IMG/VR virus record: IMGVR_UViG_3300023118_000016
Location: 1 to 40,131 of that record
Direction: 5' to 3' (one strand)
Length of the DNA: 40,131 bases
From: a virus
Of this stretch, positions 18,429 through 39,704 are shown piece after piece. Positions within the stretch are counted from its first letter, which is position 1. Each line of letters begins with the position of its first letter. The translations under genes were made by a program, and so were the position numbers. A model generated the notes under the pieces. The model was given only the letters and a program-made list of their open reading frames with translations, searched no databases and was not told the origin of the DNA.

Positions 18429-18442
18429 TTAACTTTAACACT

Positions 18443-19436: not shown

Positions 19437-19843
19437 AAGGCACAGACGACTTATTGAAGCGGTTAAAGGCGTTGGGGGATGTAGGTCAAGAACTGGCAAC
19501 GGAAATTGAAGGAACGGCTACCGATGTTGAAATAGATGCCATACGAGCAGCGCCGGTTAGTATAGGACAAAAGATAAGTAAGAAAGCCAGTAACGGCGGC
19601 TTGGTTCAACAAATTGAGGTTAACGCTGGTAAAATAGGTGCATATATTGAGTTTGGTACGGGGTCAAGTGCAGCGCAATTAGTACCTACTTTGCCCGATG
19701 AATGGCAGGCAATAGCAAGGCAGTTCTTTATTAATGGGCAGGGGACATTAAAGAGCGCACCTTATTTATACCCGGCATGGGTTAGGCATACTACAGGATT
19801 TGAACAACGGTTAAAGAAAATAATGGAGAAAGCGGTAAAATGA
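19433..19843 (+). CDS. HK97 gp10-like tail completion protein
   Basis: 136 residues. Starts with the helix GTDDLLKRLKALGDVGQELA and contains AAPVSIGQKISKKASNGGL, EFGTGSSAAQLVP and SAPYLYPAWV, in the order of the HK97-gp10 family (RAPVDTG-L, YVEFGT, PFLRPA). It sits at the head-tail junction. Confidence 0.85.
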   Translation: MKGTDDLLKRLKALGDVGQELATEIEGTATDVEIDAIRAAPVSIGQKISKKASNGGLVQQIEVNAGKIGAYIEFGTGSSAAQLVPTLPDEWQAIARQFFINGQGTLKSAPYLYPAWVRHTTGFEQRLKKIMEKAVK

Positions 19844-20088
19844 TTATATCGGGTAAGGATTTATTACACGTAATAAACAGAACAATGAAAAATAAAAACA
19901 AATCATGTAAGGTTGTAAAAAGCAATGGTTATTTACAATTATCCATGCCAAACGGTGATTTGATACCACAACAAACAGGGTTAGTTATAAACAACGTGAT
20001 GGGAGCAAATCCCAAAAGTGATGTTGTGTTAATATCTGTGACTTGCAATATAGAAATGACAGTTGACGAGTTTTTTGCAATAGTTTAA
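19840..20088 (+). CDS. Hypothetical protein inserted in the tail module
   Basis: 82 residues. Pattern: helix (GKDLLHVINRTMKNKNK), short strands (GYLQLSMPNGDLIP), then VVLISVTCNIEMTVDEFF. It does not resemble the structural families expected here and breaks the usual adjacency of gp10-like and tail terminator genes. Coupled by ATGA to the upstream gene and directly abutting the next one. Function unknown. Confidence 0.65.
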   Translation: MIISGKDLLHVINRTMKNKNKSCKVVKSNGYLQLSMPNGDLIPQQTGLVINNVMGANPKSDVVLISVTCNIEMTVDEFFAIV

Positions 20089-20541
20089 ATGAAAGACGCA
20101 ACCACCCAACTTCGCACGTACTACTATAACACATTGCAAGGCATTGTAATTGACGGCTTTGAAATCCCTGTGTATAGCGACGAAGTAAATGATAGTGTTG
20201 CCCCTTATACCCGTAATGAACCGCCCAAATATTACATTATCATTTCCAATCAGAATAGCGCAGACGAAAGCGCAAAATGCAACTTCGCCGAACGTCATAC
20301 GATACAGGTTAATAGTTACACCATATTCCCAGTAAGTAACGGCGGCTATTCAATTGCAGAGGCGATAAACGAAGAGGTGAAAGAGCGTATTTTACTAAAC
20401 ACATCTGGTAATTTCGAGCTACAGGATTATTCTGTTTATCGTTCCCGCATTGATTTATCGAGCAATATATCAGAAAAAACAAAGACACAAAATATATACA
20501 GAAGATTTACTATATTTAACCATTCAATAGCAGAAAAATAA
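20089..20541 (+). CDS. Tail terminator / DUF3168-like protein
   Basis: 150 residues. Contains FEIPVYSDEVNDSVAPYTRN, PPKYYIIISNQNSADES and HTIQVNSYTIF with a following AEAINEEVKERIL helix, the order of tail terminator (gpU-like, DUF3168-related) proteins that cap the tube. Position between gp10-like and tail tube genes agrees. Confidence 0.75.
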   Translation: MKDATTQLRTYYYNTLQGIVIDGFEIPVYSDEVNDSVAPYTRNEPPKYYIIISNQNSADESAKCNFAERHTIQVNSYTIFPVSNGGYSIAEAINEEVKERILLNTSGNFELQDYSVYRSRIDLSSNISEKTKTQNIYRRFTIFNHSIAEK

Positions 20542-21416: not shown

Positions 21417-21697
21417 GGTTAACAGTTCATCAGTACGCAGAAGTAAGCCCATACGACTTTGAAATAATGTCACAGGGTTATTACAATGTTGTAAAAGAGA
21501 ACCAAAACGCTGAATGGTACAGGACGAGGGAAATTTGCTGGTTAATATACCGGGCTAATTCAGATCCAAAAACAGCGGTAAAAACACGTGAAGAGTTTAT
21601 GCCAATCGGTCAAAAGCCAGTGGTAAAAAGAAAGATAAATACTAAAAAGCTACAACAATTAGCAGCGGAAATAAACGCCAAACTAAATAACAAATAA
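21351..21697 (+). CDS. Tail assembly chaperone, frameshifted extension (gpGT-like)
   Basis: Continuation of the chaperone in the -1 frame. The fusion would have about 232 residues, 117 from the first frame and 115 from this one. The segment directly after the slip (KTIDWAAIRQFAYSRLGLTV, then VSPYDFEIM) is a typical T-domain start that recruits tape measure. An internal ATG at 21467 would miss this conserved part, so it is not taken as the start. The T-domain ends in a Lys-rich helix. Confidence 0.82.
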
Positions 21698-23460
21698 TGG
21701 CAGATGTAACCCTAACCGCAGAACTCCGAGCCAATATAGACGGTTACGAAAAGAATATTAAGTCTGCCGTAAAGAGCACCGTTGATGGTAGCAAGCAAAT
21801 AGATGCTGCTATAGGTAAGGCTAATCAATCTATTAAGGGTATCAATCCCGCTTCTAATTCCGCAGCGTTCGCATTAACCAATTTAGGCAGGGTTGCACAG
21901 GATGCCCCGTTTGGTTTTATTGGTATACAGAATAACTTAAATCCTTTATTAGAATCATTCCAAAGACTAAAAGAACAAAGCGGATCAACCGGAGCTGCGT
22001 TAAAGGCTTTAGGTGGATCACTAATTGGCCCTGCTGGTTTGGGCTTAGCTTTGTCGCTTGTGTCATCTGCAATTGTGTTATATACACAATATCAGCAACG
22101 TGCAAATGCGGCGCTAAACAATACCAAAAAATCTACAGACGATTATGTAGCCACTTTAGATAACGTTCGTCAGGCACAACTAAAAGGCGAACAATCGGCA
22201 GCGCAGGAAACAACACGCTTAGCCATATTATACAACGCTACTCAAAATACTACCTTATCGCTTAAACAACGTGGTGCTGCTTATGATGAACTGTCAACTA
22301 AATACCCTAAATTCTTTTCTAATACAGCAAAAGAACAAACATTATTAGGGCAAAATACAGAGGCTTATTATAAACTATCTTCTGCAATATTATCAGCCGC
22401 TTATGCCAAGGCTTATGAAGATAAAATAGGGCAAAATACTAACAGGGTATTAGAGGACAGGCAGAAGTTAATTGATTTAACCATAGCCGAAACAAAGGCA
22501 AGAGCGGCTGTCAATAGGCTTGAAGCGTCTGCTAAAGACAATACTAACTATGGAGGCCAGGGTTCAGCAGTAGGGGATTCACAATTTATACAGCAAGCGC
22601 AAGAGAATTTAAATAAGGTATTATCTGCAAAGGAAAATATATTAATAGATATAGGTATTCTCTCCAAACGTAACGATGATTTAGCACGTGCAGCAACCAC
22701 AGCCGAATCAGACGCTAACTTTAAAACTAACGGGCAGTTAGATGATAAGATAGCAAAAACCAAACAGCTAAGATTAGAAAGGCAGCAATTAGAAGAATTA
22801 GGCGCTACAGACTTTTCGGCAAGGTCAGGCATAATTGATCGTAACGGCGCTCCCGTAGTAAAAAGCAATATAACAAATACAACCGAACTGGTTGGGGCAA
22901 GCAAAATATTAGCTGACTATACCGCTCAATATGGCAAGTTAATAGATCAGAAAGCAATATTCTTATCCCAGCAGGAAATTGAAAAGAATAATTTAGGCAT
23001 TGTAAATAACTTATTCGGGCAAGGATTAACCGGGGCATTCGAATCAGCCATACAAGGTACTCAATCCTTTGTCGGCGCAATGGGGCAATTCTTAGGGCAA
23101 TTAATCAGCAAATTAGTTGCGGCGGCACTTGCGGCGGCGGCTTTATCTGCATTATTGTCATTTACTGGCGTGGGTGGATTGTTAGGTATATCTTCCGGCG
23201 CTTCAGGCTTCGGTTCGCTATTTAAGGGACTATCAGGGCTTAATTTCTTAGCAGATGGTGGTATAGCATCCAAGCCAACTTTGGCAATGATAGGAGAGGG
23301 TAAAGAGCCTGAAATAGTAGCACCCTTAAGCAAGTTTGATGCAATGGTAGACAACAGGGCAGGAATGGGCGGTGCAATGACGGTAACACATAAAATAGTA
23401 GGCTCTGATTTACTATTAGTAATCGACCGGGCTAATAAATCGAAAGGGCGTACCAGCTAA
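21697..23460 (+). CDS. Tape measure protein
   Basis: 587 residues. Determines tail length (at about 0.15 nm per residue, close to 90 nm). N-terminal helices with repeated KSAVKSTVDGSKQIDAAIGK pattern, a long coiled-coil centre, a hydrophobic segment (IGPAGLGLALSLVSSAIVLY) and a second near residues 463-505 (LISKLVAAALAAAALSALLS), then LADGGIASKPTLAMIGEGKE, the usual C-terminal signature. Membrane segments suit a role in channel formation during DNA entry. Confidence 0.92.
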   Translation: MADVTLTAELRANIDGYEKNIKSAVKSTVDGSKQIDAAIGKANQSIKGINPASNSAAFALTNLGRVAQDAPFGFIGIQNNLNPLLESFQRLKEQSGSTGAALKALGGSLIGPAGLGLALSLVSSAIVLYTQYQQRANAALNNTKKSTDDYVATLDNVRQAQLKGEQSAAQETTRLAILYNATQNTTLSLKQRGAAYDELSTKYPKFFSNTAKEQTLLGQNTEAYYKLSSAILSAAYAKAYEDKIGQNTNRVLEDRQKLIDLTIAETKARAAVNRLEASAKDNTNYGGQGSAVGDSQFIQQAQENLNKVLSAKENILIDIGILSKRNDDLARAATTAESDANFKTNGQLDDKIAKTKQLRLERQQLEELGATDFSARSGIIDRNGAPVVKSNITNTTELVGASKILADYTAQYGKLIDQKAIFLSQQEIEKNNLGIVNNLFGQGLTGAFESAIQGTQSFVGAMGQFLGQLISKLVAAALAAAALSALLSFTGVGGLLGISSGASGFGSLFKGLSGLNFLADGGIASKPTLAMIGEGKEPEIVAPLSKFDAMVDNRAGMGGAMTVTHKIVGSDLLLVIDRANKSKGRTS

Positions 23461-26045
23461 TGTTTGTTACATTATATAGTTTCGCACAATCGGGTAATCT
23501 ATACAGCGTTTATTACGATACGGATAACCCTACCTATATTAATTATAATTTAATAGGCACTTATGTTGGTACATTGCCACCTCCAACGGCCGGTACACAA
23601 GTAGGCGCTCCGTATTGTTTAGGTACTGATAAGTACGTTTACAAAGCGCAAATAGCTATCCCTTATGCTAATTATACGCTTGAATTAAACTCACCATATT
23701 GCGGATATACACCTCCAGCATGCGACATTGTAGAGGTTAGCTACTCTGTAACCGATGAAACTGACATAGTCGCTAATAACGGCTCTGTAAATATGTTTGC
23801 GGTGTCCTCATTTGGGGGCATTATTTATTATTTATTCAATGCTGATTTATCGGTTGATTTATCCAATACAACCGGTTATTTTACTAACCTTGCGCCTGAT
23901 ACGTATACGATAAAAGCGCAGGATTTAAACGGGTGTTCTGTACAGGAAACTGCCATTGTTTCTCCATTTGATAATACTAAAACACATTATAAGTACCGGC
24001 TATTAACGCCTAACATTGACGGTACTATAACATGGGAGTGTAGGCTATTAGATATGCGCAATAACTATTTAATAGCTGATTATCCTATTGACTTAAAAGG
24101 AGGTGAAACCCCTATTTACATATCGCAAAAGCTAAATGAGGAAGATAAAACAAGTGCCTTCGCTGTAAAAACAGTTGACATACAATTACATTACGACCAA
24201 ACATTTGCCACTGATGAATTTAATTTAGCGCAAGAGCGGCAATGGAAGTGTGAATTGTATAAAAATGGCGTATTAGAGTTTCAAGGTTGGATATTACCCG
24301 ATCAAACGCAGGATTATTATCAGGATGCACCCTATTCTTACACATTGCAGGCTACAGACGGTATTCCATCGTTAAAAGGTAATTCATGGGGTGACGGTTC
24401 AGGGGGAAATGGTTATAGCGCTTCCCAAATACCCCAATACGGCTTAACCGAGTATATGAGGCTGATTAAGCAATGTTTAGACCAATTGGGGTACAACTAC
24501 GGGGATGTTATAATAGCTTCCTCCCTACGCTTTAATAACACCTACAACGCCAATATATGGAGAAACATGGCAACGTGGTCTGATATATTATATTCAAGCG
24601 AAGGCGAGCCAATTAAAACATACGATGCGCTGGAGAAATTAGTTAAAGGTATGCGACTTTGTTTACTCCAACACCGGGATAAGTTTGTATTGTGTAACTG
24701 GAATGACTTATCTTATTTAGGCAACGGATTAAAGTTAGATGAATATATCAAGTCATTTTATGAATTAGACCTATATTTTTCAGGCACGGGATCTATTAAC
24801 CAAATAGGCATAGGCAATCAAGTTGAGCAGCCGGTATTAAATCAGGTAGGGTTTGACTGGCCTATTAAACCTACCAATCCAGTTCAGCCATTGAATTATG
24901 ATAAGGCCTACAATATAAAGGGGAAGGTTGACTTTGATTTATTGGCTTTATTGTATACTAATCCTTCATTTGAGGTAGGAGCGGTTGAGGGGGAATTACC
25001 TATTAATTGGGGTGTTCATGGATCTACACTTAATGCATATCTACATAACACACTGGAAGCCTATGAAGGCGAATGGGTATTTAGATTGCAATGGATAAAT
25101 GAACTTTCATTACAATATGTAGAATTACTTGATGCAGGGTATTATATTGACCAGCCTAACAAGGTTGCAAATATATCAATAAAATGGAGAGAGGGTAACC
25201 ACCCTCCGTTGCCTGACGATGATAATATAACAATAGCGTACAGAGTAATATTTAAAGTACAGTCAAGTGGAAACGTATATATATTTGCAGAGGGCGCTAA
25301 TTTCGAGGACGGTATACCGAAATGGATTCCATATACAGCTTCCATATTTTCGAATAGTAAACAAAGAGTTACTGACTATATTGCATGGAATAGCTACTCA
25401 CAATCAACAACGGCTTTCCCTGAGGATGGATTAGGCTATTTAAATGTATGGCTAAATGCTCCACAAAATTTAAACCCTAATAATGACTTTACGGGTGTAG
25501 GGATGAATATGATAATTGACTATGATATATTTGAGTTATCTATCAACGACGCCAATGAAGCCTACTCTAAACAAACAGGCGAAACGCATTCGGTTAATTC
25601 CATTAATGGCATACCGCAAGCCAATACAAAGGAACTTAGTTTAGACTTCTTTACCTATCCTAATAACAAACGTATAGCCGGTAATATATTTACGCAATTG
25701 CCATACATAGACGGCTTAGTGCAAAACAAATGGAACTACGCATTAAAAACGCTTGACTCGCAGGATAGGTTACCCGCAGCAATAGTTCGTTCCATAGCCC
25801 GCAATTACGGTAGGCCAATGTATATTTATGAAGGCGACTTTAAATCTGATTATGTGCAGTTTTATAGTATGTTTAAATTACGCTTTTACGAGAATAAAAT
25901 ATTCATGCCTATGAGTTTAGAGTTAGATTGCCGTATGGGTATTGGAAAGCTAACTTTATATGAAGTGAGTGACGAAGATATACAGGCACAATACACCTAT
26001 CGTGCTATCTATGAAAAATCGGCACGAAAGAATGTAAATAATTAA
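23460..26045 (+). CDS. Tail tip/baseplate protein with SprB-like repeat
   Basis: 861 residues, ATG 23460 overlapping the tape measure stop. The first 85 residues are aromatic and Gly/Pro-rich. Residues about 88-166 (CDIVEVSYSVTDETD to NGCSVQETAIV) have the beta-sandwich pattern of SprB-type repeats of Bacteroidota surface proteins. Then follows a part common in tail proteins of such phages (LHYDQTFATDEFN, GVLEFQGWILPD, YSYTLQATDGIPSLKG), and a long beta-rich rest. Probably the distal tail or hub protein that contacts the cell. Catalytic motifs are not evident. Confidence 0.75.
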   Translation: MFVTLYSFAQSGNLYSVYYDTDNPTYINYNLIGTYVGTLPPPTAGTQVGAPYCLGTDKYVYKAQIAIPYANYTLELNSPYCGYTPPACDIVEVSYSVTDETDIVANNGSVNMFAVSSFGGIIYYLFNADLSVDLSNTTGYFTNLAPDTYTIKAQDLNGCSVQETAIVSPFDNTKTHYKYRLLTPNIDGTITWECRLLDMRNNYLIADYPIDLKGGETPIYISQKLNEEDKTSAFAVKTVDIQLHYDQTFATDEFNLAQERQWKCELYKNGVLEFQGWILPDQTQDYYQDAPYSYTLQATDGIPSLKGNSWGDGSGGNGYSASQIPQYGLTEYMRLIKQCLDQLGYNYGDVIIASSLRFNNTYNANIWRNMATWSDILYSSEGEPIKTYDALEKLVKGMRLCLLQHRDKFVLCNWNDLSYLGNGLKLDEYIKSFYELDLYFSGTGSINQIGIGNQVEQPVLNQVGFDWPIKPTNPVQPLNYDKAYNIKGKVDFDLLALLYTNPSFEVGAVEGELPINWGVHGSTLNAYLHNTLEAYEGEWVFRLQWINELSLQYVELLDAGYYIDQPNKVANISIKWREGNHPPLPDDDNITIAYRVIFKVQSSGNVYIFAEGANFEDGIPKWIPYTASIFSNSKQRVTDYIAWNSYSQSTTAFPEDGLGYLNVWLNAPQNLNPNNDFTGVGMNMIIDYDIFELSINDANEAYSKQTGETHSVNSINGIPQANTKELSLDFFTYPNNKRIAGNIFTQLPYIDGLVQNKWNYALKTLDSQDRLPAAIVRSIARNYGRPMYIYEGDFKSDYVQFYSMFKLRFYENKIFMPMSLELDCRMGIGKLTLYEVSDEDIQAQYTYRAIYEKSARKNVNN

Positions 26046-26061
26046 TTATATTAGCGTCATA

Positions 26062-27030
26062 ATGGCAAACGAAGTTATAAAGGGTAATGATCTGATTTTA
26101 TACACTGTAATTAACGGTGTTAATAAGGCCATTTGCACGACTAAGGATTGCAAACTAAATATATCAGGCGACTTACTGCCAACTACAACAAAAGACGGTG
26201 GCAAAGGCAGCAGATATGAATATAGCGGTAAATATAATTATAGCCTATCAGTAAGCGGGTTAACTTCATTCATTGATGTAACGCCCTTAGACGCTACATT
26301 TCAAGGTTCATCGGTAGAAAGCGTTACGCCTTATTTAGATGCAGCCAGTCAATTCAAAATAAACGGTGTTGTAATAGATGACTTATACGGTACGGGTACA
26401 ACGCCTGTAATGGCAGGCGTATATGGCCTACCATATTCCATTGAGTTTATTATCCAAAATGCAAGTTCAGAGCCTAATGGTATTTTAGTAGGCATTGTTA
26501 CAAAGAACGGCGAAATTATATATCGTTCTTCTTTGCCAATGACACCCGTAGCAACTTTTGTAAAATCGGGCGTCATACAGCCGGGCGCAAGCTATGAATA
26601 TAGTTGGTATACTACCGTTGGAGCAGCGCCAACCAATATTGATATTCCTGATACTAATACAGAATTTAGTACACACGCTATAAATGTTCAGGAATTTCAG
26701 CAGGCAGTTTTAGAAAGCCGAAAATTACAGTTTTTGTTTAGCTCTAACGATGTTGAATATAGAGGAACGGTGTTAGTACCAACTATTGATATGGATAGCC
26801 CTGATAACGCCGTATCATCATTTAACACGACATTACAGGGCGATGGGGATCTGATACCTACTTTTACAAATGGTGATATTCCTTTACCGACTAATACAGT
26901 AATTATTTATGACCAGTTTGGCGCTATAGTAGCAATTATACCGGCACCGGGGTCATATAATGTTTTAAGATTTGATACTTTAGATTGCAGGGGTTACGCT
27001 AATCCTGATTTAATAATTATGCCAGCATGA
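26062..27030 (+). CDS. Tail-tube-like protein with inserted domain
   Basis: 322 residues. The N-terminal 75 residues (KGNDLILYTVINGVNKAICT, LPTTTKDGGKGSRYEYSGKY) look like the start of a TP901-1-type tube protein, and about 210-275 (QAVLESRKLQFLFSSND, ASSFNTTLQ-type end) looks like its end. The 100 or so residues between them carry a second beta-rich unit. It is separate from the main tube gene at 20546 and lies among tail-tip genes, so it may form a terminal ring or decorate the tip. Inferred from pattern only. Confidence 0.6.
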   Translation: MANEVIKGNDLILYTVINGVNKAICTTKDCKLNISGDLLPTTTKDGGKGSRYEYSGKYNYSLSVSGLTSFIDVTPLDATFQGSSVESVTPYLDAASQFKINGVVIDDLYGTGTTPVMAGVYGLPYSIEFIIQNASSEPNGILVGIVTKNGEIIYRSSLPMTPVATFVKSGVIQPGASYEYSWYTTVGAAPTNIDIPDTNTEFSTHAINVQEFQQAVLESRKLQFLFSSNDVEYRGTVLVPTIDMDSPDNAVSSFNTTLQGDGDLIPTFTNGDIPLPTNTVIIYDQFGAIVAIIPAPGSYNVLRFDTLDCRGYANPDLIIMPA

Positions 27031-27443
27031 TAACAGTTGACGCAAGAATTTTAGAAAACAGTTATACATCGGCTGAATGGGTAGCAAGCAATCCAATATT
27101 GCCTGATAGGGTATTAGGATATGATACTACTGTATTGCGTTATAAAATGGGGGATGGTGTTACCGCTTGGAACTCCTTGCCTTTTTGGAATCCGTCTTTA
27201 AATTTAGCCCCTGTTAAACATACTTATGCTTCAGGTTCTGCTATATCGCAATTCATTGCATTACCCGCAGGATTCCCTGAATCAGCCGACCTCATTTACT
27301 GGGAAGCCGGACAGCGTTTCTATCCGGCTATAACACAGGTATTTTCAGGCAGCACGTTAACAGGATGGAATATTGTCCTAAATGATGACGGAAGCGGGAC
27401 TGGTATTACTGGTGTTGCAGGGGTTGTTTGGGTGAAGCCGTAA
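27027..27443 (+). CDS. Small tail fibre/appendage protein
   Basis: 138 residues, ATGA overlap. The start has the widely found fibre N-terminal motif: ARILENSYTSAEWVASNPIL, LRYKMGDGVTAWNSLPF (RxxTxxEWxxxNPxL ... K-GDG-T-W-LP). The C-terminal part is a small beta domain. Probably an attachment part of the tail. Its stop is 12 bases from the convergent gene at 27456, with no hairpin between them. Confidence 0.75.
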   Translation: MITVDARILENSYTSAEWVASNPILPDRVLGYDTTVLRYKMGDGVTAWNSLPFWNPSLNLAPVKHTYASGSAISQFIALPAGFPESADLIYWEAGQRFYPAITQVFSGSTLTGWNIVLNDDGSGTGITGVAGVVWVKP

Positions 27444-27455
27444 AATCAAAGCTGC

Positions 27456-27752
27456 TTATCGCTTATATTCAGACCACCTCTTAACAGATAGTGAGTTATT
27501 TACATGATCTCTAATTTCATTTAATATAAATTCAGGTATAGGAACTTCGTTTTCTGATACATTACTGTCACGCTTCGAAAGTCTATCATAGCGAGTTAGC
27601 ACCTCAAAATTTATATGCCTTTTAGATGCCTTCACTTGCTGGGTATACCCATTTAAGATGAAAGTTATATTTTCAAAATTTTCAAACATCATAAATGACC
27701 ATGTTGTTTTTAATAAACCATCCTCGGATAATTGTTCTTTGTAGTAATTCAT
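27456..27752 (-). CDS. Hypothetical protein, last gene of the leftward block
   Basis: 98 residues, basic (ends KRWSEYKR) and helical. No family recognised. Its ATG overlaps the stop of the 50-residue gene upstream (ATGA). Converges with the tail gene ending at 27443. Confidence 0.6.
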   Translation of the reverse strand: MNYYKEQLSEDGLLKTTWSFMMFENFENITFILNGYTQQVKASKRHINFEVLTRYDRLSKRDSNVSENEVPIPEFILNEIRDHVNNSLSVKRWSEYKR

Positions 27753-27901
27753 ATTAATTCTAATTGTTTATGTTCAATTTCATATCTTAAATAATGATCT
27801 GGTGCATGGTGTAGGCATATCCAAGCTTCACACACTGCCTTTCCAACATACCGACGCATCTTGTTCGCTCTTTCCTTTTGATATTTTCGGTTAGCTGTCA
27901 T
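27749..27901 (-). CDS. Hypothetical basic 50-residue protein
   Basis: ATG 27901. Strongly basic start (MTANRKYQKERANKMRRYVG) and a Cys-containing middle (KAVCEAWICLHHAPDH) that could hold a metal through C24, C29, H31 and H32. Unrecognised. ATGA overlap with the next gene supports it. Confidence 0.55.
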   Translation of the reverse strand: MTANRKYQKERANKMRRYVGKAVCEAWICLHHAPDHYLRYEIEHKQLELI

Positions 27902-27916
27902 CTTTCCTTATTGGTG

Positions 27917-28117
27917 TTAAGCCTGTTGAGGCGGGTTAAAAAATTCTAAAGCATCTTCAGGCCACCACCAATTATTAACCTCGTAGGCATCCCCGTAAAT
28001 TCGGGTTATTTTCCCATCTACACTTAAATCCATATCCATAACGTGTGATATATATTTAGTGCTTGGAAACCAATTAGTTTTAACCTTATCGCCAATTTTA
28101 AATTTATTCTCTTTCAT
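27917..28117 (-). CDS. Small KOW/SH3-like protein
   Basis: 66 residues. KFKIGDKVKTNWFPSTKYIS, DGKITRIYGDAYEV and WWPEDALEFF suit a small SH3-like barrel as in KOW-type or YopX-neighbour proteins. A similar layout occurs at 38498. Function unknown. Confidence 0.6.
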   Translation of the reverse strand: MKENKFKIGDKVKTNWFPSTKYISHVMDMDLSVDGKITRIYGDAYEVNNWWWPEDALEFFNPPQQA

Positions 28118-28125
28118 AATCTTTC

Positions 28126-28347
28126 TTATATTTTATCGGTGGTGGTGAGGGCTTGTAAGTTTTCAGGCTCATCTATTAATTCAGTCCAAGCATATACATT
28201 ATAACTTGTATGCCACTTATTTAATGGCTTACTGAAATAGGCTACCTTCCTGAACGCACTATATCTATCCCATCCGCAAAATACCAAGTATTCACCACTT
28301 TTTTTTGGCAGCAAGTGGGGGCCGCTCCATTCTCCGTTCGTTTTCAT
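28126..28347 (-). CDS. DUF551-like small protein
   Basis: 73 residues. WSGPHLLPKKSGEYLVFCGW, then KWHTSYNVYAWTELIDEPEN: a central GEYLV strand and terminal W-EL-P, like DUF551 proteins (compare 10692). Its start overlaps the stop of the preceding 56-residue gene. Confidence 0.6.
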   Translation of the reverse strand: MKTNGEWSGPHLLPKKSGEYLVFCGWDRYSAFRKVAYFSKPLNKWHTSYNVYAWTELIDEPENLQALTTTDKI

Positions 28348-28514
28348 TTGGCTGGGGTTAGGTTAATGAACTCTGTTAATATTTTTATAAGTTCTTTTGC
28401 TTGCGGGGTATTAATCAACACACAGTCATCATATTTCCTAATATATATATCACCATCATCATATTGAATACTTGCCACAGACAATCCTCTGTCTTTTATA
28501 TCTGTTTCTTCCAT
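28344..28514 (-). CDS. Hypothetical 56-residue protein
   Basis: ATG 28514, stop overlapping ATG 28347. Two or three strands (VASIQYDDGDIYIRKYDDCV) followed by a helix (AKELIKILTEFINL). No family recognised. Confidence 0.55.
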   Translation of the reverse strand: MEETDIKDRGLSVASIQYDDGDIYIRKYDDCVLINTPQAKELIKILTEFINLTPAK

Positions 28515-28525
28515 TGTAGATAATA

Positions 28526-28735
28526 TTAACCGTTGTATTCAGGTAAATTACTAAACTCTTCTTCGGTCATAAACACAATGCTGATTTTGTATTCTACATT
28601 CTCTCTGTCAGACGGTTCAATATCGCCTAAGTCCATTTCAATATGTTCTGATACCTCACGCATGCTTGCTAAATACAACCCGCCCAAATCAGCGTTATCG
28701 CTAAGGCAGTAGTACATATCCTTTTCGTTTTCCAT
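28526..28735 (-). CDS. Hypothetical acidic 69-residue protein
   Basis: Very acidic (EMDLGDIEPSDRENVEYKIS, then MTEEEFSNLPEYNG). A DNA-mimic role is conceivable on charge alone but not shown. No family recognised. Confidence 0.6.
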   Translation of the reverse strand: MENEKDMYYCLSDNADLGGLYLASMREVSEHIEMDLGDIEPSDRENVEYKISIVFMTEEEFSNLPEYNG

Positions 28736-28758
28736 CTTCTTACTTTTCTATTGATTTG

Positions 28759-29001
28759 TTAAAACTTAATGCCTTGACGTTTACAAAATGAGTTAGCCGA
28801 GTGCTTTGTATAATATCTGATAAAATCAATTGCACTTTCATGTGAATCGAATGAAGCTGTTTCAGAGGCAAAAGAATCATCACTATCTTCTAAAGTACCA
28901 ATTGCTAATATGTTCACCAGTTCAGTACCGTTACTATCCCTGTCACGATATAGCAACACATCTGGAAATTGGCTTTCTGTTTCAATTATTTTAAAGTTCA
29001 T
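28759..29001 (-). CDS. Hypothetical acidic 80-residue protein
   Basis: Alternating strands (PDVLLYRDRDSNGTELVNIL) with an acidic Ser-rich middle (EDSDDSFASETASFDSHESA) and a helix. No family recognised. ATGA overlap with the upstream gene. Confidence 0.6.
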   Translation of the reverse strand: MNFKIIETESQFPDVLLYRDRDSNGTELVNILAIGTLEDSDDSFASETASFDSHESAIDFIRYYTKHSANSFCKRQGIKF

Positions 29002-29273
29002 ATCTTATTTTCTATTTCGGTTAAAGGGTTAAGCTTATTGGTTAATATTTCAGATAAACGATTGTGTAAAGCAGTAGCCCGTTCAATCAATTTAGCATTA
29101 TTGCCACAAGTTGAAGTGCCATATATTTTCATACGTGATTTAATGCGTTCATCTTTGCTAAATATCCATGTTTCATATTGGTAGTATTCACCAAACCACT
29201 CGTTATAATATATAATAGCACTGCTAACCCTTACCTTGTCGGTTATTATTGTACTCGCTATATTCACGTTCAT
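28998..29273 (-). CDS. Hypothetical 91-residue protein
   Basis: The centre reads SAIIYYNEWFGEYYQYETWI and IKSRMKIYGTSTCGNNAKLI, followed by a helix LIERATALHNRLSEIL. Aromatic-rich. No family recognised. Confidence 0.6.
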   Translation of the reverse strand: MNVNIASTIITDKVRVSSAIIYYNEWFGEYYQYETWIFSKDERIKSRMKIYGTSTCGNNAKLIERATALHNRLSEILTNKLNPLTEIENKI

Positions 29274-29292
29274 CTTCTAAATTTTTTTGTTG

Positions 29293-29643
29293 TTAAATGA
29301 GAGGGGTGAGCAATTCAGGGTTTTGGTAGATGTTGCCGATGACTTCTAAATAGTCCGATTTATAGTCGCCTAATTGCCACGACAACTTATTTGGGTTTTT
29401 AAGCACAAAACAGCCTTTCTCGTAAGCAACAGTGTCGATTAGTTCACCTTCATCAATGCTGTATGATTTAACAATATCACCCTCATAAATTTCAACACTA
29501 TGTTTATCTTTAAGGCCGGTGAATTGCATAACATTGTATGTATCCCTGCATATCATTTCGTTAAAATCCCCAAGTGCGTGTACGAATGGGTGCATAACAT
29601 TATTGGTGTGATGCCACGCTCTAAACTTTATTTCTCTTTTCAT
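29293..29643 (-). CDS. YopX family protein
   Basis: 116 residues. MKREIKFRAWHHTNNVMHPF, VMQFTGLKDKHSVEIYEGDI and YLEVIGNIYQNPELL are the three conserved parts of YopX proteins (REIKFRAW ... QFTGLKDKNG-EIYEGDI ... VIGNIYENPELL). The fold is an SH3-like barrel and the role in phages is unknown. A second copy is at 38862. Confidence 0.92.
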   Translation of the reverse strand: MKREIKFRAWHHTNNVMHPFVHALGDFNEMICRDTYNVMQFTGLKDKHSVEIYEGDIVKSYSIDEGELIDTVAYEKGCFVLKNPNKLSWQLGDYKSDYLEVIGNIYQNPELLTPLI

Positions 29644-29665
29644 ATTACTTAATTATTAGTGTTAG

Positions 29666-30013
29666 TTAAAATCTACTTACAAGTGGTTCAATATCTTCAT
29701 TTAAGACATTTTTAATTATCTGCCACGCCTGCATAATATCTCTATCAGCACTTGTTAGTTTATTTTCGCTATCTAAGAAACGAGCCGCTAATCTTAATGC
29801 GTTCTCTATATCCTTAGCTTGATCCTTAATAGTTATTGAAAAATCAGATTGTCTTTCACCTGTTTTTAAATCAACGTTAGCGTTTGAATTAGGGTAAAAG
29901 TTGAAAAAGAAATAGGGTAATATTTTCTCCCAATCTTCACCGTAGTCGACTAATCCAGTATCTTTAAACGATAGATTAGTTTCTGTTTTTTGTTGATTAT
30001 CTGCCAATAGCAA
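29666..30013 (-). CDS. Hypothetical protein with uncertain 5' end
   Basis: 115 residues if the TTG at 30013 is used. The frame is open upstream to about 30083 and encodes a convincing coiled coil (LVKENQKLREDLKRAQVFC) but has no ATG or GTG there. An ATG at 30107, which overlaps the preceding stop, opens a 12-codon frame (MKKQPHLTTQPC) in another phase. So the true gene may start at a non-standard codon or be frame-broken. The body (SITIKDQAKDIENALRLAAR) is helical and unrecognised. Confidence 0.55.
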   Translation of the reverse strand: MLLADNQQKTETNLSFKDTGLVDYGEDWEKILPYFFFNFYPNSNANVDLKTGERQSDFSITIKDQAKDIENALRLAARFLDSENKLTSADRDIMQAWQIIKNVLNEDIEPLVSRF

Positions 30014-30103
30014 CCTCAGGCAAAATACCTGAGCTCTTTTTAAATCTTCTCTTAGCTTTTGGTTTTCTTTAACAAGGTTGCGTGGTTAGGTGGGGTTGTT
30101 TTT

Positions 30104-30259
30104 TCATTTTATATTTTCTAATCTGTTAATTTTACTTTTCAAAAACTTGTTTTCACGTTCAAGTAAGGTTACTCTGTCTGAAACATCCGACACCTTTTTA
30201 ACAAGCATTTTAATTGTGTTTAAAAGCTCGTCATAAAATTCTTCTTGTGCCTCATTCAT
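30104..30259 (-). CDS. 51-residue coiled-coil protein
   Basis: ATG 30259 overlaps the previous stop (TGATG). Heptad-like throughout (LLNTIKMLVKKVSDVSDRVT, LLERENKFLKSKINRLE), so a parallel dimer or trimer is likely. Function unknown. Its stop overlaps the ATG at 30107 discussed with the next gene. Confidence 0.65.
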   Translation of the reverse strand: MNEAQEEFYDELLNTIKMLVKKVSDVSDRVTLLERENKFLKSKINRLENIK

Positions 30260-30420
30260 CAGTACGCTCCCCCATTTTTAATGTTACTGATTTTAGCTTT
30301 TGCTATTATTGCCCACACTAAATGCCACCTGTGCGCATTTTCCATATCATTCTTTTTAATAGCTTTTTTCTCTAATTCAATGGCTGTATCTGCCATTTTG
30401 GATAATTGGCGGTATGTCAT
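30259..30420 (-). CDS. Hypothetical 53-residue protein
   Basis: ATG 30420, three bases after the preceding stop. Helical and basic (ADTAIELEKKAIKKNDMENA, then HLVWAIIAKAKISNIK). No family recognised. Confidence 0.6.
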   Translation of the reverse strand: MTYRQLSKMADTAIELEKKAIKKNDMENAHRWHLVWAIIAKAKISNIKNGGAY

Positions 30421-30423
30421 GGC

Positions 30424-30663
30424 TTATGAATTTGCTTGTATGTAATCTAATATAACTTCGTCTAAATTTTCTTGCAGGTAAGAATATGTATTCCAATTGT
30501 AGTCATAGCTAAAGAAATTGGTTTCCACATGGTTCAACAATGCTTCTTCACTAATCTGCATAGTCACATTGTTTTCGCCTTCATGCGCTTCGTCCCAGTA
30601 CTGAACCGTAAATACACCTTTTTTCTCTGTGATGTTCAGGATGTCAATTTGTGCTGTTTTCAT
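30424..30663 (-). CDS. Hypothetical acidic 79-residue protein
   Basis: Beta-rich start (AQIDILNITEKKGVFTVQYW) and acidic helices (ISEEALLNHVETNFF, ENLDEVILDYIQ). Net charge strongly negative. No family recognised. Confidence 0.65.
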   Translation of the reverse strand: MKTAQIDILNITEKKGVFTVQYWDEAHEGENNVTMQISEEALLNHVETNFFSYDYNWNTYSYLQENLDEVILDYIQANS

Positions 30664-30665
30664 GG

Positions 30666-30779
30666 TTAAAATTTGTTTTGGCCTCCGTTAGATAATATAA
30701 AAAACAATACAGCGATTAATACAATTGATGCTGTGATGACGAATGTTTTTGAGAATTGTAATTTTAGTAGCTTTTCCAT
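30666..30779 (-). CDS. 37-residue membrane peptide
   Basis: ATG 30779. MEKLLKLQFSK then a hydrophobic helix (TFVITASIVLIAVLFFIL) and a short polar tail, so N-in topology. First gene behind the promoter at 30800-30831. Too short for family recognition. Confidence 0.55.
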   Translation of the reverse strand: MEKLLKLQFSKTFVITASIVLIAVLFFILSNGGQNKF

Positions 30780-30799
30780 TTTGTTTGTGTTTGATGATG

Positions 30800-30831
30800 T
30801 AAAGATAAGTTACATATTCGTAACATCCAAA
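30800..30831 (-). promoter_or_regulatory. Promoter with inverted repeat in the spacer
   Basis: On the minus strand TTTG (30831-30828), 20-base spacer, TATCTTTA (30807-30800), one mismatch from TAnnTTTG. The spacer contains GTTAC-ATATTC-GTAAC (30809-30824), a symmetric element that could be an operator. Drives the genes from 30779 leftwards. Confidence 0.6.
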
Positions 30832-30842
30832 TAAATAATGAA

Positions 30843-31019
30843 TTATTTTTTCTTTACCCAGTTATCCGGCTTTACATAGCCAAATGAGGCGAATATTTTG
30901 TTATACATATCGCTGCTTAAAGCGCCATTATTATGTCTGTGCTTTAATACACGGCTTCCTTTAATGTCTTTAAATTCAGCAGTTGCGCTGATTTTTTTGA
31001 ATAGTTCTGTTGTGGTCAT
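30843..31019 (-). CDS. Hypothetical basic 58-residue protein
   Basis: ATG 31019, one base after the methyltransferase stop. Sequence TELFKKISATAEFKDIKGSR, VLKHRHNNGALSS and a KKK end. Basic, maybe nucleic-acid binding. No family recognised. Confidence 0.6.
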   Translation of the reverse strand: MTTTELFKKISATAEFKDIKGSRVLKHRHNNGALSSDMYNKIFASFGYVKPDNWVKKK

Positions 31020-31020
31020 G

Positions 31021-31542
31021 TCAAAATAATTTACTTTGTATTTTTCTTTCTACTGTTATAATTGTGTCATTATGCCACCCACCGTGAGCGACAATTAATA
31101 TTTCTACTATTTCAAATCCGTATTTTTTACCAATACCACCGCTGTTCCACCCGCATGTAATAACAACCCCGCCCGTTTTTACTATACGCCCTATCTCTGA
31201 TTTTTGATTACTCCAGTAACTTGCCTGTGTAGTTTGCATGTTAACAGTTTTACCTAATGATTTATAACACTCGCTTACTTGCCGAGGGCTATATGGAGGG
31301 TCATATAAAACTAAATCAACATGTGCGTCATGGTGTATATGCAGAAAGTCAATTGCATCCATACAATACTGTGTTTTATATTCAGGGTTTAGGTCGTTGC
31401 ATATTTGCGCTATACGGTTCTTATTTGCGAAAGGGTCAATGCTGTATTGATCCTGTTTTATATATCGGTTTATAAGTTCGCCTATAGGCTTAATACCAAA
31501 TGTGTTGCTGTTGGGCATTGCCCATGAACGGTTAATTATCAC
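31021..31542 (-). CDS. DNA adenine methyltransferase (DPPY motif)
   Basis: 173 residues with GTG at 31542 (no ATG upstream before the stop; TTG 31551 is the alternative). Seen: NSNTFGIKPIGELINRYI, then DPFANKNRIA, where SAM would bind, the catalytic DPPYSPRQVSECYKS, and GGVVITCGWNSGGIGKKYGF. This form, with motif IV DPPY and a short length, is a well known phage adenine methyltransferase. No partner restriction enzyme, so defence against host restriction is likely. It overlaps the upstream gene by 11 bases. Confidence 0.85.
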   Translation of the reverse strand: MIINRSWAMPNSNTFGIKPIGELINRYIKQDQYSIDPFANKNRIAQICNDLNPEYKTQYCMDAIDFLHIHHDAHVDLVLYDPPYSPRQVSECYKSLGKTVNMQTTQASYWSNQKSEIGRIVKTGGVVITCGWNSGGIGKKYGFEIVEILIVAHGGWHNDTIITVERKIQSKLF

Positions 31543-31759
31543 AGCGACCAAACCTTTCTATAGCTTTCGCTATCTTTTTATCTGATATCTGAAACTTTAT
31601 TGAATTATCATAAAACCTATCACGTTGTGATTTAGACAAAATAGTGTCAAGGAAATCATTCCATTCACCGTATTTTATTTTAATAAAAGGGTCACTAAAA
31701 GGATCTGCACTTGTTAAGGTGCTTCTGCTTTCATCTATTATGTAGGATTTAGTTTTCAT
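31532..31759 (-). CDS. Hypothetical 75-residue protein heading the leftward block
   Basis: Contains IIDESRSTLTSADPFSDPFI, FLDTILSKSQRDRFYDNSI and a helix DKKIAKAIERFG. No family recognised. It lies between a strong promoter and the adenine methyltransferase, with which its 3' end overlaps, suggesting joint regulation. Confidence 0.65.
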   Translation of the reverse strand: MKTKSYIIDESRSTLTSADPFSDPFIKIKYGEWNDFLDTILSKSQRDRFYDNSIKFQISDKKIAKAIERFGRCDN

Positions 31760-31854: not shown

Positions 31855-34800
31855 ATGCCAATGAGAAAGACATTATTCCTACTCCTTTTCCTACCGATAT
31901 TTGCAGCAGCACAGCAAGTGCCAGACAGTCGGGATACAGTACCGGGAACATCATCGCCCATAGTACCACAATTCAGGTATAATAGCTACAATGGTTATAG
32001 AACCACTTATATTTATAACCCTATACTGGGCAAGTATGATTTGTTATTAACGTCAAAGTATGGCAGGGGTATGTTTGAAAGCCTATCCAACAAAACAAAT
32101 ACCATATCGGGAAGCACTACTTCATACCCAAGTGTAAAAGCTGTACAGGATGCTTTATCATTTAAAGCAGACACCTCTTTAGTTAATACTAAAAGCGGGA
32201 TTTCTTCCCAGTACACTACGATACCGGGACAGAAAAGAAAATACAGTCAAACACCGTATACTACCACAGGGAACTTTATGACCGTTAATTCTGCATTTAC
32301 TACAGGTGATATAACTGGATGGACAGCAGCAAATTTAACGGATGCCTCCGCAAACCCATTATATAGCGTTGTTTCTATGTCAGGTAAAAACTGGGTTCGC
32401 ATAGATAACGGGACAGCAGGTGCTACAGGAAATACAGGAACATTAACCGCAACTATATCTGTCCCGGCAGAAAGTAGAAACTCCGTATTAGAAATATCTT
32501 TTTTAATAGGTGGCTTGTTTAATCAGGTTAATGTTAATAATGAAGAATTTACAAGCCTTTACTATAATATAGACCCTGCTAAACCTGAAAGAGTTTATTA
32601 CTATTTCAACCCAAACGGGGCATCTACATTTAATATTAAATTTTCACGTGCTTATGCCAACGCTTTAGTAACAGGTGCATATACCTATATAACAGAGTTG
32701 TTAGTTAAAGAGGCATCATATACTAATATAGACATAGCTAAAGGTATTCCGGCAACTGGTGGAACGATACAGGTTGCAAGATGGATAAACAGTTGGGATG
32801 AAGCTAAACAGGAGAAAATAATAAGCAATAGTAGAAAATTAGGAGGGCTTGTAAGACTGTGGCTTTCAGCGGATATGTTCGCAGCCTATACAATTAAAAA
32901 TAGCCCAACAAAAAGAACGAGTGTTCCAAACGGGAATTTAACAAGTCAATATGTAGCAAGAACAACCGCAAATGTGCCTAATGGATTAGACCCTTCCAAA
33001 ACTTATAAAATGGATTGGATATTTAAAAAGTTGCGGGAATACGGCTTAAAGGTTCACGTATTATTAGGCGCTGGTTTTGGCGACGGTATTGGAAACCCAA
33101 GTTCAACACTAAGCACACAGGGTACTTATGAGTTTTTGGATACAGATACAGATGTACAAAATGGGTTTCTATCCTTGTTTACTACAGTAGTTAATAGGTA
33201 TAAAACTTATGAAAATATAATAGGATGGGAAATAGGGGATGAAGGTTATCCAACATGGTCTTATGATTATTCAGGGGTTAGTAAAGTAACGGGTACTGCA
33301 TATCATCACGGTGTTATGTTTGCAGGTTATAAAGTATTTGAACGATTGGCTTATACTGCAATTAAAACAGCAGACCCGCTTAGACCAGTAATATTAAATA
33401 CGGGCGGTGTCCAATATCAAGTTGGTCAAGGGTTTTTTAATGACAATACTATTTGCGATTGGTATTGCCCATCCGTTTATCCGGGTGCTTTTAGTGTAAC
33501 CCCTGCTTTAATTACGGGCGGCAACACATTTCAGCCAGCACAGGGTTATTCGCAACTATTAACAGGTGTATCTAATAACCAAAGTGTTATTGTATACAAG
33601 CCTACAGGTGTAACATTACCAACTGGATTAACAGATGGGCAGCGTTATTATTTCGTTTCATTAAATGCCTTTAATTTTAAGCTTTCATTAACTCCCGGAG
33701 GATCTGCAATTTCAGTAAGCGGTGGTAGCGGTGAATTTTGGCTTTATATGGATACAGAAGCGGGTGCTGGTCTTTCTGATTACGCTATCAGGCAGGCGAC
33801 ATACAACCCTAAGTTTACTTATTTTTCTGAATATGGTGCATCTATTTTACCTTTTCCAAAATTTTTATATAGAGATGATGCTGTAAATTCACAAATATTA
33901 ATCGGATTATATAAACGCCTATCTAAATTTGGTTCAGCTTCAGCCATCGCCTTTGTTGAGCCTGATTTATATTTTAATGAAACTACTGGTGTGTTTAATG
34001 AGAGTGGAAAAAACCTAATATCTTTTTCCTCGCAAGGAGTAAATTGGTTAGGCTATTCGCCAAACTTAAACACAAGTACGCCAATTAATGACATTAACGG
34101 AACTGAAAAAGCTACCCTATTTAAGTCAGGCACATTTACAAGCGGCTCACTTGCAAAGTTTGATGCCAGTGGAAATATAATAGCAGCAACCCCAGGTGCG
34201 GACTATATTAATAATACTTTAGGTGATGCAAGGTATTTACAACTTTCAGGCGGAACGCTTACAGGGGGCATAACTGGCACTACAGCTAATTTTAGCGGAC
34301 AGGTTGCCGGGCAAACGTTTGTTAATTCATCTTATGGAGGTACCTTAATTGCCGGTGATGCTTCATTTGGCAACGTTAAGGTATCAGCAATTAATAGCGG
34401 CCCGTTTATAGGAGCAACAAGCTATAGAAACGGTGTGCCGGAATTTCAATGGGGTAGTAATGCAGGCGGCACGGCTATCACAAATAACTATTGGAACGGA
34501 TCTTCATGGGCTAATCTATATGCTATCAATTCAAGTGGTGCTAACTTTACTGTACCTGTTACGGCTACTGCGTTCAATGGCAATGCAACGAGTGCAACAA
34601 ACGCTACTACAGTTACTAACGGACTTTACAATACTGGCAGCTATAGCAACCCATCATGGATAACATCTTTAGCCTACTCTAAATTAACAGGCGCACCAAC
34701 AGCAGTAAGTGCATTTACTAATGATGCTGGCTATTTAACTAATATAACTGGGTTAGACCTTACTACTTCGCAAACTATATCCAGCGGTGTTAAAACGTTT

Positions 34801-35244
34801 GCCGTAAGCCCTATTGTACCAACACCAACAACATCGACACAAGCGGCTAATAAAGGATATGTGGATGCAAACATTCCGGCTATAACGCAAGTAAACTCCG
34901 CTACACTTGCAACCGGTTCATCTGTTATAACCTCTTATGCAGTAACAACAACCGGTACATTCAGCATAGGCGGTTACGTTAATATAAACGCTATAACACT
35001 GGGTTCAAGTTCAGGGATAAAATACTTAATCAGTTATACAGATTTAAACGGTGTAGGACAATCGGTTGATTTTTACGCTCCCGGCACAACCAGTTCAACA
35101 TTAAGTACCGCAATAGACCATCCATTTCAGCCCATTGTTTTACGGGCGCAGGGAGGTACAAATATCATAGTAGCAACAAATAATGTAGGGGGTATACCTA
35201 CATTTATTTCATATAACGCAGGAGTAATCATAACTAAATATTAA
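31855..35244 (+). CDS. Tail fibre with signal peptide and glycoside hydrolase domain
   Basis: 1129 residues. Domains in order: a Sec signal peptide (RKTLFLLLFLPIFAAAQ, cleavage near residue 19), a fibre stem (to about 130), a jelly-roll-like carbohydrate module (about 135-295), a TIM-barrel hydrolase like clan GH-A (about 300-690) with WEIGDEG at 458-464 (putative acid/base Glu 463) and FSEYGAS with putative nucleophile Glu 659, then fibre repeats (ARYLQLSGGTLTGGITGT near 792, NPSWITSLAYSKLTGAPT) and a C-terminal head. Residues about 556-632 are a beta module (LPTGLTDGQRYYFVSLNAFN) inserted into the barrel. Probably a receptor-binding depolymerase. The signal peptide is unexpected for a virion protein. 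Confidence 0.8.
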   Translation: MPMRKTLFLLLFLPIFAAAQQVPDSRDTVPGTSSPIVPQFRYNSYNGYRTTYIYNPILGKYDLLLTSKYGRGMFESLSNKTNTISGSTTSYPSVKAVQDALSFKADTSLVNTKSGISSQYTTIPGQKRKYSQTPYTTTGNFMTVNSAFTTGDITGWTAANLTDASANPLYSVVSMSGKNWVRIDNGTAGATGNTGTLTATISVPAESRNSVLEISFLIGGLFNQVNVNNEEFTSLYYNIDPAKPERVYYYFNPNGASTFNIKFSRAYANALVTGAYTYITELLVKEASYTNIDIAKGIPATGGTIQVARWINSWDEAKQEKIISNSRKLGGLVRLWLSADMFAAYTIKNSPTKRTSVPNGNLTSQYVARTTANVPNGLDPSKTYKMDWIFKKLREYGLKVHVLLGAGFGDGIGNPSSTLSTQGTYEFLDTDTDVQNGFLSLFTTVVNRYKTYENIIGWEIGDEGYPTWSYDYSGVSKVTGTAYHHGVMFAGYKVFERLAYTAIKTADPLRPVILNTGGVQYQVGQGFFNDNTICDWYCPSVYPGAFSVTPALITGGNTFQPAQGYSQLLTGVSNNQSVIVYKPTGVTLPTGLTDGQRYYFVSLNAFNFKLSLTPGGSAISVSGGSGEFWLYMDTEAGAGLSDYAIRQATYNPKFTYFSEYGASILPFPKFLYRDDAVNSQILIGLYKRLSKFGSASAIAFVEPDLYFNETTGVFNESGKNLISFSSQGVNWLGYSPNLNTSTPINDINGTEKATLFKSGTFTSGSLAKFDASGNIIAATPGADYINNTLGDARYLQLSGGTLTGGITGTTANFSGQVAGQTFVNSSYGGTLIAGDASFGNVKVSAINSGPFIGATSYRNGVPEFQWGSNAGGTAITNNYWNGSSWANLYAINSSGANFTVPVTATAFNGNATSATNATTVTNGLYNTGSYSNPSWITSLAYSKLTGAPTAVSAFTNDAGYLTNITGLDLTTSQTISSGVKTFAVSPIVPTPTTSTQAANKGYVDANIPAITQVNSATLATGSSVITSYAVTTTGTFSIGGYVNINAITLGSSSGIKYLISYTDLNGVGQSVDFYAPGTTSSTLSTAIDHPFQPIVLRAQGGTNIIVATNNVGGIPTFISYNAGVIITKY

Positions 35245-37654: not shown

Positions 37655-37693
37655 ATGATTAGCCGTTACATTAACTTGATAACGGCTTTTTAA
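37655..37693 (+). other. Leader ORF inside a hairpin, overlapping the endolysin start
   Basis: ATG 37655 encodes MISRYINLITAF, and its TAA (37691-37693) shares the A of the endolysin ATG (TAATG). Nearly the whole ORF lies within the hairpin described next. Translating ribosomes would melt the hairpin and could restart on the endolysin. Confidence 0.5.
37661..37691 (+). terminator. Terminator-like hairpin directly before the endolysin
   Basis: AGCCGTTA (37661-37668), an 11-base loop, TAACGGCT (37680-37687) and TTTT: 8 perfect pairs and a T-run, the form of an intrinsic terminator. It ends 2 bases before ATG 37693, so it would either cut off or delay endolysin expression. Confidence 0.7.
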
Positions 37694-38262
37694 TGAATAA
37701 AGACAAGCTATTTACGACACTCCGAGAAATGAACCGGGGTAAACTATCACAGAAACAAGTGGATAGCATTAACGCCATTTTAGATAGCTGTGAAAAGCAT
37801 TTAATATCAGATACCCGACACATCGCTTACATATTGGCAACGGCTCAACATGAAAGCGGATTAACACCTATTGAGGAACACGGTAAAGGCGCAGGGTTGC
37901 CTTATGGTAAGATGTTGGATATAGGCAAAGGCCCAAACAAAAGAGTGGCTTACACAACGCCTAATAAGCTGTATTACGGTCGTGGATTTGTTCAGATAAC
38001 TTGGAAGTCAAATTATGCAGCTTTTGCACGACTATTAGGAGTTGATTTAGTTAATAGACCTGAACTGGCATTGCAAACAGATATAGCTGCGGAAATTATC
38101 GTTATAGGTATGCAAAAAGGAATGTTTACCGGCATCCGTTTAATTGATGCTTTTAACAAATTAGAAACAGATCCTATCGAAGCAAGAGAAATAGTAAACG
38201 GGCATGATAAGGCTGCTTTAATAGCTGGTTATTATAACAAAATATGGGCATCATTACAATAA
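37693..38262 (+). CDS. Endolysin, GH19 family
   Basis: 189 residues. Hydrolyses peptidoglycan glycan strands. Seen: catalytic Glu in ATAQHESGLTPIEE (Glu 54 and a second Glu at 61/62), YYGRGFVQITWKSNY at 94-108, and a NRPELAL motif after it, all in the GH19 lysozyme order. No signal peptide, so a holin has to let it out. Followed by a 3-base gap and a membrane gene. Confidence 0.92.
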   Translation: MNKDKLFTTLREMNRGKLSQKQVDSINAILDSCEKHLISDTRHIAYILATAQHESGLTPIEEHGKGAGLPYGKMLDIGKGPNKRVAYTTPNKLYYGRGFVQITWKSNYAAFARLLGVDLVNRPELALQTDIAAEIIVIGMQKGMFTGIRLIDAFNKLETDPIEAREIVNGHDKAALIAGYYNKIWASLQ

Positions 38263-39281: not shown

Positions 39282-39360
39282 ATCTTTTTTGTTTGCGTTC
39301 TTCATAAATGGCTATCGCTATTAAAATAGGAAATAGCAGTAAAAGGAGTATGTTTTTCAT
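39262..39360 (-). CDS. 32-residue membrane peptide
   Basis: ATG 39360, TAG 39264-39262. Hydrophobic helix (ILLLLLFPILIAIAIY) then a basic tail (EERKQKRYERNKI). It overlaps the YopX start, suggesting coupled translation. It also overlaps the preceding stop by 4 bases. Confidence 0.5.
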   Translation of the reverse strand: MKNILLLLLFPILIAIAIYEERKQKRYERNKI

Positions 39361-39704
39361 GGTTTGGTGATTGCGTATACTACTTTAAATGGGAATGGCT
39401 CTTTGCCATGAAGTGTTAAATACTTTTTATAAATCATAATCCCGTTGAAGTTTACATAAGGATAATCCAATCCATAAATGGCATAAGCCTTAAGCCATAT
39501 AAAAGTTGGTGTATCGGCATCAATTAAACAATATGCCAATACCTGCACGGTATCAAGTGTGCTGTGTATAGATGGATAACTACCATTAATAAAGTTCGTT
39601 GTTGTAGTGGCTATAGATGCCCCGGTACCCTCTGTGGGTTTAATCTTTTGCGCCTTTACTCCAATGCTACAAAGAAGTAAGGCTATGATTAGTATTATTT
39701 TCAT
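39357..39704 (-). CDS. Secreted or periplasmic small protein
   Basis: 115 residues. Signal peptide of Sec type (IILIIALLLCSIGVKAQ, cleavage near 18/19), with a Cys in the hydrophobic part but not in a clear lipobox. The mature part is beta-rich and Tyr-rich (IWLKAYAIYGLDYPYVNFNG). No family recognised. Small exported phage proteins of early operons sometimes block superinfection. This is inference. Confidence 0.65.
   Translation of the reverse strand: MKIILIIALLLCSIGVKAQKIKPTEGTGASIATTTTNFINGSYPSIHSTLDTVQVLAYCLIDADTPTFIWLKAYAIYGLDYPYVNFNGIMIYKKYLTLHGKEPFPFKVVYAITKP

Follow-up and report, generated by a model that had tools for sequence, protein, structure and literature searches.

The fibre gene that closes the tail module in the window (the whole stretch of DNA that was analysed, a 40,131-base virus record) starts with a Sec signal peptide (SP). 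The best explanation of our data is that the product is probably a Sec preprotein that is exported to the periplasm, processed and joined to the tail at lysis. In the textbook view, tailed phages are assembled entirely in the cytoplasm. If the explanation is true, part of the particle would mature in the periplasm and be added at or after lysis, against that view. What the data show directly is the SP with its Q-rule form, the recurrence of such SPs at the fibre position, a homology that links phage 11b to a split fibre, and the annotation, based on mass spectrometry (MS), of SP-bearing proteins as virion proteins in three cultured Bacteroidota phages.

The signal peptide of the window fibre and its surroundings

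The fibre ORF (31855-35244, + strand) is intact, with 1129 codons and no internal stop, and comprises the following parts:

31855..31911, + strand: Sec SP MPMRKTLFLLLFLPIFAAA, predicted cleavage between A19 and Q20 (translation, SP scoring with shuffles, start-codon check)
31912..32121, + strand: mature N-terminal module QQVPDS...PQFRYNSYNGY...SKYGRGMF, common to the fibre-position gene of the relative L002 (BLASTP, alignment)
32713..34080, + strand: central region, TIM-barrel glycoside hydrolase-like by eye (IIGWEIGDEG, FSEYGAS; inspection only)
34090..35241, + strand: C-terminal fibre-like region, rich in G/S/T/N (DARYLQLSGGTLTGGITG..., NKGYVDAN...), with an end domain (translation)

The preliminary description had proposed a Sec SP on this ORF, and translation, SP scoring, shuffling and a check of the start codons confirmed it. 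The N-terminus, MRKTLFLLLFLPIFAAA followed by QQ (in full MPMRKTLFLLLFLPIFAAA followed by QQVPDS), has an n-region of net positive charge, then a stretch of uncharged hydrophobic residues, an A-x-A motif ahead of the cut and glutamine at +1. A positive n-region, a hydrophobic core, small residues at -3 and -1 and Q at +1 are the features of a Q-rule substrate of signal peptidase I. Within the Bacteroidota most substrates of this enzyme carry Q at +1 (mean 71% across species), which is then cyclised (PMC5837995, PMC10653852). The protein is not a lipoprotein, because Q20 rather than a cysteine comes after the cleavage site. All SP calls were made with a rule-based scorer, not SignalP. When the N-terminus of the window fibre was shuffled, an equal score was reached in 5 of 100,000 trials (5e-5), and the shuffled N-termini of 223 ORFs yielded an SP with Q within +1..+3 at a rate of 4.5e-5. 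Between the last upstream stop and this ATG there is no in-frame ATG, GTG or TTG; ATG1 and ATG3 both retain the SP, and the next candidate start, GTG22, lies just beyond the cleavage site. The window fibre may have its start at GTG22, but in the relatives the start codon overlaps the stop of the gene before it and is thereby pinned at the SP.

The record contains a siphovirus tail module, which together with the lysis gene is organized as follows:

21697..23460, + strand: tape-measure protein, no SP (PHROG tape measure, E=3.5e-10)
23460..26045, + strand: tail-tip protein of 861 aa, no SP, used as bait for relatives (best-segment identity to relatives 41-50%)
26062..27030, + strand: tail-tube-like protein, no SP (Phage_tail_2, E=2.8e-4; major tail protein PHROG, 1.2e-5)
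27027..27443, + strand: tail protein of 138 aa, no SP, with an Mtd_N-like N-terminal fibre anchor domain (Pfam Mtd_N, PHROG)
27456-31759, - strand: leftward cluster of small genes between anchor and SP fibre, ~4.3 kb (ORF layout)
37693..38262, + strand: endolysin, GH19-type (PHROG endolysin, E=6e-31; Pfam GH19)

The SP fibre gene is the last of the tail module and lies after the tail tip, the location expected of a tail fibre. The 138-aa anchor protein matched Pfam Mtd_N (E=0.016) and PHROG N-termini of tail fibres and tailspikes (E down to 1.3e-6). It aligns with proteins at the same place in four relatives (L002, L005, L006 and L007), and the anchor proteins of relatives also match PHROG N-termini of tail fibres and tailspikes. 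In L002 the two genes are likewise several kb apart, with small leftward ORFs between them; in others the anchor adjoins the fibre. The endolysin points to release by lysis, and periplasm and virions would then mix. Elsewhere in the window, a 115-aa ORF at 39357-39704 (- strand; MKIILIIALLLCSIGVKA followed by QKIKPTEG) is predicted to encode a second Q-rule exported protein, not in the tail module, and a GIY-YIG homing endonuclease-like ORF (MIGIYKVTSPIGRIYIGQS...) is inserted at 17748-18428 (+ strand), where it separates the capsid gene from the connector genes.

The label 'fibre' in the preliminary description was a guess as far as the protein itself is concerned, as the window fibre matched nothing in Pfam, PHROG or PDB; it gains support from position, from the N-terminal similarity to L002 and from the family evidence given below. 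Homologues of the whole fibre or of its central domain were not found in phages, viral contigs or PDB, nor were prophage relatives with named hosts in two scans of genome contigs. The similarity to the L002 gene is weak and N-terminal only (BLASTP 34% over 74 aa, E=5e-4); it runs from the SP into the mature N-terminus, and the bodies differ. A fixed attachment end with an exchangeable body is the usual fibre pattern, which the two sequences appear to match. For the central region, which had no Pfam profile match and no PDB sequence match, the tentative clan GH-A-like glycoside hydrolase assignment comes from Glu motifs seen by eye, with no match to a family profile. An AF2 model of the mature fibre (single sequence without alignment) had a pLDDT of 34 and was uninformative on the glycosidase fold. 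As part of the best explanation, the window protein is probably the distal, receptor-binding tail fibre of a Bacteroidota siphophage, and probably glycan-active. A periplasmic O-glycosylation motif, D[ST][AILVMT], was dropped as a candidate feature, being enriched in some relatives and not in the window fibre.

Signal peptides on the fibre genes of related phages

Relatives were selected with the tail-tip protein as bait, and thus independently of the SP, which gave viral contigs that are 40-54% identical in the tail tip (L004 being a shorter copy of L003). A survey of related fibre genes for SPs, suggested earlier as a check, was clear in its outcome: all five relatives that cover the region after the tip (L002, L003, L005, L006 and L007) have at least one fibre-like gene there that encodes an SP followed by Q (SP-Q). 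Unlike these genes, those for tape measure, tail tip and capsid encode no SP. In the window and the five relatives together, a strict rule called SP-Q in 11 of the 14 long ORFs (300 aa or more) after the tip and in 1 of the 122 remaining ORFs (Fisher p=9e-13); a twelfth SP-bearing ORF after the tip (L006 13744) was rejected by the strict filter. Residue -1 was A or G and residue +1 was Q in every one of the 13 SP proteins, that of the window included. In several phages (L002:15782-16357, L036:7516-8019, L039, L041:2173-2751, L007) a small SP-Q gene directly follows the SP fibre and perhaps encodes an exported fibre chaperone or tip. Near the tail operon, and not always inside it, we observed a cysteine-rich SP-Q beta-helix/Ig family with a start of the C-G-x-[YF]-x-x-HS type (L003:20476-21963, L006:20143-21453, L007 near 17996-20101, L083:1139-3190).

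A DNA pattern for one type of SP (MKK...xPxFAxAQ) was in addition run over 2.9 million viral contigs, of which 74 matched, with 73 readable ORFs. Since the pattern itself requires Q, the scan is unusable as a test of the Q-rule. Around 25 of the 73 ORFs were large, fibre-like and rich in G/S/T/N, most of them directly after tail genes. In 18 of 28 cases the start overlaps the upstream stop by 1-4 bases, so that translation must begin at the SP, and in several loci the following gene is likewise SP-Q. Among 35 SP fibres there were PHROG tail-fibre and minor-tail matches; the domains identified were GDSL esterases, single SASA esterase and BNR domains and one S74 chaperone domain. SP-fibre bodies can be aligned with fibre and minor tail proteins encoded by Stenotrophomonas, Gordonia and Arthrobacter phages. 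None of the 35, the window fibre included, had a C-terminal sorting domain for type IX secretion (T9SS) in NCBIfam or Pfam. The pN/pS of ~0.24 in the SP of a second group of SP phages is biased by the search pattern and was not used as proof. The scan also recovered proteins of other kinds. Fourteen of the 73 ORFs encode nuclease-like proteins of ~144 aa (DGDTV...YYGEAK.SWC; staphylococcal-nuclease-like by eye), e.g. L024:2249-2683 (- strand), L043 and L062, which are putative phage-encoded exported nucleases. Twelve (L021, L027 and L034 among them) encode a 133-aa protein (DTVKIPAPVAKQIVKDL...) that has a hydrophobic segment in its C-terminal part and is possibly spanin-like.

Virion proteins with signal peptides and a split fibre

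The virion status of SP proteins in cultured phages was taken from GenBank notes ('structural protein ... experimental MS/MS proteomics'). In Cellulophaga phages phi10:1, phi19:1 and phi39:1, 10 of the 11 SP-bearing proteins of the tail operon are so annotated: all four of phi10:1 gp091-094 (SP-Q), phi19:1 gp101-103 (SP-Q; gp102 is a pectate lyase and gp103 a 'tail fiber') and gp104 (SP followed by K), and phi39:1 gp25-26 (SP-Q). The ten are not all independent, because gp093 and gp102 are 97% identical, and periplasmic contamination of the virion preparations may be a source of the annotation, although the SP-like ORFs that these phages have elsewhere than in the tail operon carry no virion annotation. 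The MS/MS data therefore indicate that the SP proteins are virion fibres and not only free enzymes. This bears on the free depolymerase considered in the preliminary description. In one form of that idea the fibre is exported, is freed at lysis and works as a depolymerase or adhesin, removing capsule or debris to the benefit of the progeny, with no part in the virion. Several relatives do have esterase, lipase, pectate-lyase-like or peptidase domains, and the one protein of the 11 that is not MS-annotated, phi10:1 gp095 (SP-Q), is pectate-lyase-like. Against a purely secreted enzyme stand the ten annotated proteins at the same locus, the bodies, which are homologous to fibre and minor tail proteins from other phages, the fact that most relatives have no other long fibre-like genes after the tail tip, and the missing T9SS domain for passage of the outer membrane. 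We consider this role unlikely.

Flavobacterium phage 11b, whose tail tip is 43% identical to that of the second group of SP phages and which has the same family and tail operon, encodes a single-chain fibre without SP, gp46. Residues 1-147 of gp46 match an SP-less anchor gene of 225 aa directly upstream of the L018 SP fibre (45%, E=9e-36), and residues 162-769 match that SP fibre from its residue 68 (29%, E=3e-43). The break lies at the same point in L080, near gp46 residue 142, and L012 and L064 match gp46 from that residue on. The SP fibre therefore corresponds to the distal part of a fibre that is one chain elsewhere; the split may have originated in either direction, by fission or by fusion.

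Proposed export and loading at lysis, and comparison with known systems

Virion presence together with a conserved, cleavable-looking SP leaves two routes: the fibre is exported and loaded afterwards, or it keeps an SP that is never used. Along the second route, which the preliminary description had put forward as a hydrophobic attachment helix, the protein would stay in the cytoplasm and the helix would pack into the tail tip. This would keep to the usual cytoplasmic assembly, and hydrophobic N-termini can serve in attachment, but the invariant A/G at -1 and Q at +1 are the mark of the host's signal peptidase I in Bacteroidota and would be pointless in a buried helix, and the downstream partner often bears the same SP, which makes this reading improbable. 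Export is favoured, because the Q is strict and neighbouring products appear to be exported too. Export might instead serve to control infection: a periplasmic fibre would act on receptor and cell debris, by masking or destruction, so that progeny are spared or superinfection is blocked, and loading would be secondary. Other phage-encoded exported proteins, e.g. T5 Llp, block receptors, and late-operon timing and glycan-active domains would allow such a role, but it is very unlikely in view of the missing outer-membrane export signal, the MS annotation as virion proteins and the conserved anchor-like mature N-termini, which would be superfluous.

Under the favoured explanation, export followed by loading, SecYEG would move the preprotein across the inner membrane, signal peptidase I would cut after AAA and the exposed glutamine would probably be cyclised to pyroglutamate. 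Having no type IX signal, the fibre would remain in the periplasm, where it would fold and trimerise, in some relatives beside an exported partner from the following gene. Head, tail and short SP-less anchor proteins would meanwhile assemble in the cytoplasm, and lysis would mix the two pools so that the fibre could dock on the tail. Of the options in the preliminary description, which included an outer-surface loading step, loading after export fits best, with lysis as the simplest meeting point because there is no outer-membrane route. From the evidence above we infer cleavage, periplasmic folding and docking at lysis, and a window fibre that behaves like the Cellulophaga ones. Possible gains would be oxidising folding, active enzymes kept away from the cytoplasm, and the stability provided by an N-terminal pyroglutamate (PMC10653852).

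The virion finds in three cultured relatives suggest that SP-tagged fibres first pass out of the cytoplasm and are added to the particle later. The broader proposition is that a group of Bacteroidota tailed phages builds its virion in two compartments, with head, tail and short anchors made in the cytoplasm, and distal fibres, some with partners, sent by Sec to the periplasm and joined only at lysis; we regard the case for it as evenly balanced. This idea is directly testable in cultured phages. If it is true, expression and study of such fibres would need cleavage, oxidising folding and exported partners. An SP-Q gene after the tail tip would also flag the fibre genes of Bacteroidota phages that have no other annotation. 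We rejected the notion that the trait is universal in these phages, as SP-less fibres are common among cultured ones; the fibres of seven (phi12:1, phi18:1, 11b, snork6-1, B124-14, RAP44 and FCL-2) lack an SP, and export is therefore dispensable in the phylum.

In the open literature (subscription journals fell outside the search) we found no description of exported virion fibres, which we provisionally take to be new. One paper (PMC6199706) states that SPs are absent from the phage retroelement-target proteins that it examined. The closest published remark concerns phages of P. gingivalis, which have Q-rule SP genes of unknown function that were read as modifiers of the host outer membrane (PMC10367356); these are phage SPs as found here, but unlike here they were not read as fibres. 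The Cellulophaga SP virion proteins resemble the window fibre in being fibre-like tail-operon products with a Q-rule SP, encoded after the tail tip, although the relation is distant or undetectable by sequence and their GenBank notes omit the SP. Conventional Mtd_N-like fibres likewise have an anchor domain and a fibre-like body, but combine them in one SP-less chain, whereas in the SP phages the anchor is a separate protein and the fibre has its own SP. Phage 11b gp46 is like the SP-phage pair in tail operon, anchor and body, and differs in being one polypeptide without SP.
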